Shown: positions 14,755 to 48,547 of the stretch, in pieces
How positions within the stretch are numbered: the stretch's first letter is position 1
Layout: each line of letters starts with the position of its first letter
Source of the DNA: Ferirhizobium litorale
GTDB taxonomy: Bacteria > Pseudomonadota > Alphaproteobacteria > Rhizobiales > Rhizobiaceae
Assembly (NCBI GenBank): GCA_030028905.1
Contig: JALDYZ010000013.1
Span: 62,001 to 126,000 of the forward strand
Direction: 5' to 3'
Length of the DNA stretch: 64,000 nt
Translations under genes and position numbers: made by a program
Notes under the pieces: model-generated
Database searches by the model: none
Told to the model about the DNA's origin: nothing
The model's input: the letters and a program-made list of their open reading frames with translations, nothing else

Positions 14755-14907
14755 AATGCAGGCAAAGCAGTTCGTCGCAAGCAACGTGTAGTCGCATTGG
14801 CAGTTCTCCTGGCGCGTCCAGAAGCCACAGGTGCTTCCTCCCTCCCCTGTTGGTGATGCGCCCCCCTTGCCTCGCTCATTTCTTCAGATGAGCGAGGCAT
14901 TTTTTTG
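14755..14907 (+). ncRNA. Candidate trans-acting small RNA
   Basis: Between the DUF922 gene and the convergent ferredoxin gene lie about 370 bases with no coding frame. They end in a strong rho-independent terminator on the plus strand. About 35 bases before it is a pyrimidine run (CTTCCTCCCTCCCCTG near 14833-14849) complementary to Shine-Dalgarno sequences, the type of unpaired seed found in several rhizobial Hfq-dependent small RNAs. The 5' end is uncertain; AT-rich sequence at 14710-14755 could hold the promoter. I cannot assign it to a named family. It could instead be a long 3' UTR of the DUF922 mRNA. Confidence 0.5.
14868..14907 (+). terminator. Strong rho-independent terminator
   Basis: A 12-base perfect stem (TGCCTCGCTCAT at 14868-14879, ATGAGCGAGGCA at 14888-14899) is followed by eight T residues on the plus strand. 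The minus strand lacks a T-tract after the hairpin, so the terminator faces rightward. Confidence 0.92.
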
Positions 14908-36747: not shown

Positions 36748-37685
<938 letters not shown>

Positions 37686-37718
37686 TGTTTATAGCGATGA
37701 AGGCATGCGGATGGCAAG

Positions 37719-47049: not shown

Positions 47050-47973
47050 CTACGATGGTGATGACAGCGCGAGCAGTTCGGCGATCAATACCCGTCCCAA
47101 CTCACCCCTGCTTGTGCGATCATGGGCCGCGAACATCGGCCCGCTGTTGACCTCGAGAAAGCAAACTTCGCCCGTCGCGGTCCGTGTTTTCAGGTCGAAT
47201 GCGCAGAAATTCAGACCCAGTTCGTCACTCATCACGCGCAAGCGCGGCAAGACTTCCGCCAAAGGTCCGTGATCATTCGGGCAGACTTCCATTCGGGCGG
47301 TGGGATCGACCCGGTAGTCAAGTTCTGCACTCAGGACGACGAAGGCCATGAACCTGTCGCCCAGCCGGTAGACCCGGTATTCCGGATAGTCGAGCTTCTC
47401 CTGCACGAAGGCGGGTATCGGCAGGCTGCCACCGGGCGCCAGTACCTCGAAGTCGATCCCGGCAAGCGGCTTGCAGTAACCGCCGCCATTGACCGGCTTG
47501 GCTACGAACCTTGCGGAGTCATTTGCAAATCGCCTTATCTCCGCCGCGTCGTTGGAAACAAGGGTTGCCGGTGTAGCGAGTCCCGCTTTGTGCGCCGCAC
47601 GCAGGTCGGCCATCTTGATCCCGGCAAAGCTCGCCATGTTCCTATTGAAGACGCCGATGCCGGGCTGCAGGAGAACAGCGCCCAGCATGAAGGCAAACCA
47701 GCCCGGCGCACGTGGCAACGCGCCTTCCTTCTCGACCTCGCGGTTGAAGACGTTCATCCGCACGAAGGCCGCTCGGGGGAAAAGGGGTCTTTCGCCGAGC
47801 ATCAGGCTGTTGTGGCGGAAATCGAGGCTGGCGGCCACTTTCGCCTTTGTATCGTGATAGATCGTGATGGCCGTCAGCCCGAGCTCGGTGACCCGCACCT
47901 CCAGCAACTGCAGGCACGGATCGTCCCGCCCACCGGCAATCAGCAGATCGGGCCTGAGAACGTCAACGCTCAC
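47050..47973 (-). CDS. RimK/MvdD-like ATP-grasp ligase
   Basis: The frame starts at GTG 47973, overlapping the end of the preceding gene by 11 bases, and encodes 307 residues. A preATP-grasp part (1-110) with MNVFNREVEKEG is followed by GVFNRNMASFAGIKMADLRA and GLATPATLVSND. The ATP-grasp core shows SARFVAKPVNGGGY (ATP-binding Lys), FVQEKLDYPEYRVYRLGDRF, and the metal site FCAFDLKTRT with CFLEVNSGP. The order resembles peptide ligases of the RimK/MvdD/PsnB group that join carboxylates to Ser/Thr/Lys side chains or to amino acids. The substrate is unknown; the coupled upstream gene is the obvious candidate. The long opposite and upstream frame extensions are shadows. Confidence 0.8.
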   Translation of the reverse strand: MSVDVLRPDLLIAGGRDDPCLQLLEVRVTELGLTAITIYHDTKAKVAASLDFRHNSLMLGERPLFPRAAFVRMNVFNREVEKEGALPRAPGWFAFMLGAVLLQPGIGVFNRNMASFAGIKMADLRAAHKAGLATPATLVSNDAAEIRRFANDSARFVAKPVNGGGYCKPLAGIDFEVLAPGGSLPIPAFVQEKLDYPEYRVYRLGDRFMAFVVLSAELDYRVDPTARMEVCPNDHGPLAEVLPRLRVMSDELGLNFCAFDLKTRTATGEVCFLEVNSGPMFAAHDRTSRGELGRVLIAELLALSSPS

Positions 47974-48547
47974 CGAATGGTCCGCGCTGCACAAGCCGTT
48001 CTCGCGGATCGAAATCCTCAAATCCGGGAGACTTGCGGAGGAGTTCGTTGCGGATATCCTTCTCCAGCGCGAACGGCCCGGTTCCTTCGGTAAAGATATC
48101 AGCCAAGGTCGGCCAGCCTTCTTCGCCGAGCGCCAGCGTGGTGAACCGGCCTGGCGGCAGCCTGGGAAAAGCCGGGCCGATGCGTTCCAGGAAATCGGGC
48201 AAAGTCGTGTTGAGCGACACTTGGCCGGCTTCCACGTTGAGAAGCGCCGTGCGGCTGTTGGTCCGCGCATGCACGATGACCCCGGCAATCTTGTCGACAT
48301 TCTCAGCAATGACAAGGTTTGCATGCACCGGGACAACGACCTGCGGCACGATGCCCTCCGGTGGATCGCCCACCAGCTCGAGATCGAAGATGCGATCCGG
48401 AGAGAGGTCGCCTTCCAGAATATTCAGCGCAACGTTGGTGTAGCCGGGTGTCGCGGCCCGGCCGCTCACCATTACAAGGAGCGTCGGCGGATCGCTCTTG
48501 TTGAGGGTGACCTGGACATCGTCGACGGAAAGCAGGCGGACTGACAT
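47963..48547 (-). CDS. Uncharacterised 194-residue partner of the ATP-grasp ligase, with TTxxxxEE motif
   Basis: The ATG at 48547 follows AAGGAGAGGA. I recognise no family. The N-terminal 110 residues alternate hydrophobic and polar (TLLVMVSGR, VVVPVHANLVI, AGVIVHART), suggesting a beta-sandwich. The C-terminal part holds TTLALGEEG (136-144), which fits the TTxxxxEE core of plesiocin-type graspetide precursors, followed by TEGTGPFALEKDIRNE (153-168). The gene is translationally coupled to the ATP-grasp gene. It may be a substrate, a carrier with a modified tail, or simply an accessory protein. It is larger than known graspetide precursors and has one motif, not several. Confidence 0.62.
   Translation of the reverse strand: MSVRLLSVDDVQVTLNKSDPPTLLVMVSGRAATPGYTNVALNILEGDLSPDRIFDLELVGDPPEGIVPQVVVPVHANLVIAENVDKIAGVIVHARTNSRTALLNVEAGQVSLNTTLPDFLERIGPAFPRLPPGRFTTLALGEEGWPTLADIFTEGTGPFALEKDIRNELLRKSPGFEDFDPRERLVQRGPFGER

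Follow-up and report, generated by a model that had tools for sequence, protein, structure and literature searches.

TTxxxxEE is the core motif of plesiocin, the graspetide made by the synthetase PsnB. Plesiocin is described as a hairpin-ringed peptide with two side-chain esters in each repeat (PMC12291112; PMC9484694), and both plesiocin and the microviridins are serine-protease inhibitors, the potency of plesiocin rising with its number of motifs (PMC13097080). A gene pair of the rhizobium Ferirhizobium litorale resembles the plesiocin system in part. The pair lies on the minus strand at 47050..48547 of a 64,000-nt stretch (assembly GCA_030028905.1, contig JALDYZ010000013.1, positions 62,001-126,000; here called the window and given its own numbering), where a precursor open reading frame (ORF) is followed by that of an ATP-grasp ligase. 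Like plesiocin, the precursor carries a TTxxxxEE core, and PsnB is the nearest solved relative of the ligase; unlike plesiocin, it combines one core and a degenerate unit with a folded domain of 102 residues ahead of them and a conserved PFG at the C-terminus. It is fairly probable that the PsnB-like ligase ester-staples the TTLALGEE segment of the adjacent protein and that the hairpin is kept as a permanent C-terminal protease-inhibitor module on the folded domain. The computed parts of this interpretation are the ligase family, the co-occurrence of ligase and TTxxxxEE, the domain's presence where core or ligase is missing, a constant PFG C-terminus and a low ratio of nonsynonymous to synonymous substitution rates (dN/dS) for domain, core and tail. 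A sequence-only reading of this DNA had described a 194-residue partner whose residues 136-144 read TTLALGEEG, and beside it an ATP-grasp gene with an 11-base overlap, and the ORFs bear this description out.

The ligase profile matches the solved structure of PsnB at an E value of 2.3e-35, the next synthetase at 3e-16 and RimK at 0.076. Identity to PsnB is about 23%, and the assignment as a graspetide synthetase is a best match, made without a trusted cut-off because the scores fall below those of NCBIfam. The sole Pfam match, GSH-S_ATP at an E value of 0.024, is likewise below cut-off. Residues K159, R221, D260, E274 and N276 are invariant in all 43 aligned proteins. It is highly improbable that the enzyme is instead a RimK-like ligase adding amino acids to the C-terminus of its partner, or a small-molecule glutamate ligase: PsnB is by far the better match, the glutathione synthase profile is matched by one of the 43 ligase proteins, and such an activity gives no reason for TTxxxxEE to stand beside the ligase in locus after locus. 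A RimK or small-molecule glutamate or glutathione ligase was rejected on these scores, the best profile and PDB matches both lying outside the RimK/glutathione synthetase family, and the comparison proposed in the sequence-only reading thus places the enzyme nearest PsnB. A search of a 61-genome set found the ligase in three: that of the window, G007 and, as a weak match, G040.

The association of ligase and motif was surveyed by a ligase profile scan of one genome per species, which gave 69 loci chosen by ligase sequence alone from Rhizobiales, Rhodobacteraceae, Sphingomonas, cyanobacteria, Acidobacteria, Halomonas and others. TTxxxxEE occurs in a ligase-adjacent ORF at 64 of these loci (63 upstream; downstream in L035) against 2 of the 7,179 other stop-to-stop ORFs of at least 60 residues within the same loci, both of them on the opposite strand, and a chance occurrence was rejected on these counts. 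The five loci without the strict motif are L004 (TTLALGEQ), L005 (KTMAIGED), L027, L054 and L045, whose contig begins only 91 bases before the ligase match. Over 442 cores (75 precursor ORFs, 66 loci) the consensus is TT[LM]A[VLI]GEE, 433 of them having G at position 6. The window's own genome has one ligase and one partner, and DNA coding for TTxxxGEE is found there three times and a reversed control pattern four times; the motif alone is therefore unremarkable, and its position beside the ligase is the special part. Adjacency and PsnB likeness together sustain the proposal of a graspetide-type side-chain-ligation pair. Three to four TTxxxxEE ORFs stand upstream of a single ligase in L015 and in L037 and L038 (Neomegalonema).

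Conservation within the core is uneven. Alignment A1, of the window protein with ten homologues, shows G141 without exception and T137 and E142 in 90% or more; P0003 reads TTLALGEQ, P0006-P0008 read KTMA[LI]GED, and P0010 keeps remnants only. The closest relatives retain the inner pair T137/E142 and have loosened the outer pair T136/E143, so conservation of the full motif, as the sequence-only reading envisaged it, holds for T137, G141 and E142 and lapses for T136 and E143. The single core of that reading is accurate for the one full core but overlooks a degenerate second unit, T147...E154, which has the spacing of the outer pair of TTxxxxEE and an E154 invariant in 11 of 11 sequences. Tandem cores are found in the relatives L006, L008 and L029. 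On the ligase tree, the window groups with L004, then L005, then the multi-core L006 and L008 (support 98/85, 100/97, 100/95), a nesting that makes a single core the probable derived state. The nesting, together with loss of the strict TTxxxxEE from L004 and L005, might also describe a degenerating multi-core system, of which the window would hold a leftover of slight function. Selection speaks otherwise, making such decay improbable: measured against L004, dN/dS is 0.07 for the core with its second unit and 0.07 for the tail, compared with 0.10 for the domain, 0.17 for the ligase and 0.65 for the linker, ratios that are only rough because dS is 1.1-2.1, near saturation. Moreover, the window, L004 and L005 all have both frames open.

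A second shared element lies at the C-terminus. Among 66 adjacent precursors, 35 terminate in PFG plus one to four residues, compared with 4 of the 7,179 background ORFs. The tail is found in 24 of 27 precursors with the N-terminal domain and 11 of 39 without it; it is absent from all 17 precursors of one ligase clade (support 100/100), of which 13 have an LDAxxH-like C-terminus, and present in 35 of the 49 outside that clade. Short precursors (L017, L019, L023, L028, L059 and L071) have only 19-28 residues ahead of the first core, which leaves PFG as the commonest shared non-core element seen. These patterns point to the PFG tail, in preference to the N-terminal domain, as the candidate natural follower recognised by the ligase. 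A similar element is known from the graspimiditides (fuscimiditide, ThfA/ThfB), in whose leaders RPFG is the recognition tetrapeptide, one that remains functional when engineered onto the C-terminus (PMC13003496). There the natural RPFG is N-terminal and the follower man-made, whereas the window PFG stands at a natural C-terminus; the likeness may be convergent, as ThfB was not compared with the window ligase. The tail is retained in L109 (1197-2162) and L110 (1162-2586), where domain-type precursors beside the ligase carry divergent repeats of PTLGED and TFEEGEE types in place of TTxxxxEE; these repeats may form another ring pattern.

The domain in front of the core also occurs outside this pair. 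Its fold, like that of the ligase, is a model prediction, and among the folds compared a NigD-like beta-sandwich is a tentative possibility. The 194-residue partner has no Pfam or NCBIfam family above cut-off, a PDB sequence search with its profile gave a best E value of 1.8, and Foldseek returned no match to the predicted N-terminal domain at an E value of 0.001; an NAD-binding assignment was rejected, the Pfam match (PF13454, E value 0.17) being below cut-off. The beta-sandwich is present without the ligase in 14 other genomes searched. Of 120 database relatives of the domain, 36 finish in a segment resembling the I78 peptidase inhibitors (33 recognised by pattern and 3 by eye; Pfam match to PF11720 in 22 of the 36), and a terminal PFG is found in none of the 120. 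These relatives share the N-terminal domain of the window protein; the window protein itself has no I78 match in a Pfam search, and the graspetide core occupies that place. A beta-sandwich followed by an I78-like inhibitor segment is also seen in L112, L115, L116, L131 and L132 (the last two by eye). Beside the ligase-less domain proteins, no protease was noticed among ORFs whose starts were scanned by eye, no family search having been run.

These occurrences bear on the conventional alternative, in which the N-terminal domain is a large leader and an unlinked protease releases the core as a small peptide. Graspetide loci often lack a protease of their own (PMC8939145), and a sister clade combines a short GG-like leader (by eye) with a C39 exporter in 7 of 13 loci, both of which would suit such a scheme. 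Yet in 8 of the 9 loci compared the domain is better conserved than the ligase (L011 has no domain match at the cut-off used), and it occurs elsewhere without ligase or core and is absent from precursors whose ligases belong to the same tree (L023 and L028, for example); the window, in addition, has no C39 or HlyD match. Conventional release is accordingly rather unlikely. A dedicated leader is disfavoured by the presence of the domain without the ligase in genomes and without the core in database relatives, and the 'large folded leader domain' of the sequence-only reading is not supported. One domain-less precursor, that of L021 (7076-7974, Crocosphaera), lies directly downstream of a transposase-like ORF identified by eye, and its domain may have been cut off by insertion.

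Exporters were sought with one C39 and one HlyD query, both from L062. Their matches share the same 7 of the 69 loci, all within the LDAxxH clade of 13; none was found in the other 56 loci, 39 of which span at least 5 kb on both sides. The 64-kb window has no C39 peptidase or HlyD match, other proteases and exporters not having been searched for; to that extent the absence of a visible protease or exporter stands as first described, and fits a protein-modification role. The sister clade (L039, L046-L049, L055, L057, L058, L060-L062, L064 and L065) has short precursors with the GG-like leader and the LDAxxH-like C-terminus. Near domain-type pairs in related genomes a few housekeeping genes recur, and no other export or biosynthesis family was named by eye among the 25 largest neighbour clusters.

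If the stapled-module interpretation is right, the ligase would use ATP to phosphorylate E142 (and E143), and attack by T137 (and T136) would give one or two side-chain esters in a hairpin of plesiocin type. The C-terminal PFG tail would probably serve as a natural follower that draws in the ligase, making an N-terminal leader, and with it a leader protease, unnecessary. The stapled hairpin likely stays on the folded N-terminal domain, with no released peptide. Protease inhibition is the best guess at its role, by analogy, because plesiocin inhibits serine proteases and because an I78-like segment replaces the core in relatives of the domain. A caution comes from corallotide, another large graspetide precursor (~22 kDa with tag) with a full-length cyclised product, for which a disk assay revealed no significant activity (PMC13097080). 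Corallotide differs in having KxxxD macrolactams and oxygenase hydroxylation (PMC13097080), and no such enzyme is found in the two-gene unit of the window.

A broader and more tentative possibility is that graspetide chemistry serves as protein tailoring, the ligase reading a PFG tag and stapling TTxxxxEE into permanent inhibitor hairpins on folded proteins, where they replace an I78-type domain. TTxxxxEE tails also end an RTX-repeat protein (L056, 6812-7945), a Calx-beta protein (L051, 886-1536) and a DUF6174 protein (L041, 7109-8017), of which only L051 ends in PFG. The tagged carriers are thus the beta-sandwich and the Calx-beta protein, and in the RTX-repeat and DUF6174 proteins the core stands untagged. 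Were this borne out, the products of graspetide synthetases would include folded proteins that are stapled and addressed by a short C-terminal tag. This would widen the class beyond released peptides and explain long precursors that lack an exporter or protease. Core and PFG together would form a small natural tag system for stapling recombinant proteins. A shared role in protease inhibition would be directly testable, since the same carrier domain ends in either a graspetide core or an I78-like segment.

Among described graspetides, the precursors of groups 34 and 35 are often long and carry repeated motifs, and group 35 is said to consist of synthetase and precursor only (PMC13097080). The section of that source describing them is silent on a folded domain, C-terminal recognition or a single core, and the window pair resembles these groups by description only (PMC13097080). 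No mention of a graspetide with a folded domain or C-terminal tag was found in the open-licence literature searched; the group may be listed in group-defining papers or their supplements. The PsnA2 peptide chain was not found in a search through the multi-core relative P0011.

The pair stands directly after gor in the window, L005, L006 and L008, with DAHP synthase next on the far side. The gap from ligase to DAHP synthase is 185 bases in the window, 1.2-3.7 kb in L005, L006 and L008, and about 0.5 kb in L004, where the short contig stops before gor. No pair separates gor from DAHP synthase in L077, L085, L090, L091 and L092, where the two lie about 75-240 bases apart; in L080 and L082 they are about 750-775 bases apart with no match to the pair, and in the remaining relatives without the pair the fetched 1.5 kb did not include DAHP synthase. 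The distribution suggests an old, vertically inherited pair that has been lost many times. The overlap of the two genes may couple their translation. A promoter and terminator scan did not stand out from shuffled sequence, with 1 promoter-like site where shuffles average 0.5 and 2 terminator-like sites where they give 2.4.

Table 1. Features of the precursor-ligase pair, in window coordinates.
Feature	Position	Strand	Basis
Substrate/precursor gene, 194 residues and stop	47963..48547	-	ten homologues, alignment A1
ATP-grasp ligase (PsnB-like graspetide synthetase), 307 residues and stop, GTG start at 47973	47050..47973	-	profile searches
Two-gene overlap, 11 bases	47963..47973	-	sequence
Residues 1-102, folded seven-strand beta-sandwich (predicted), carrier domain	48242..48547	-	
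Residues 103-135, variable linker	48143..48241	-	33% identity and dN/dS 0.65 against L004; low predicted local distance difference test score (pLDDT)
Residues 136-144, TTLALGEEG, graspetide-type core (TTxxxxEE)	48116..48142	-	position confirmed in own genome
Residues 147-154, degenerate second unit T147...E154, putative role	48086..48109	-	alignment A1
Residues 190-194, PFGER, C-terminal tail, candidate follower for the ligase	47966..47980	-	P190, F191 and G192 invariant, 11/11

Elsewhere in the window, Rfam matches mark a Cobalamin riboswitch at 37484-37694 on the minus strand (90.1 bits) and the Rhizobiales small RNA Atu_C7 at 14759-14903 on the plus strand (65.2 bits).
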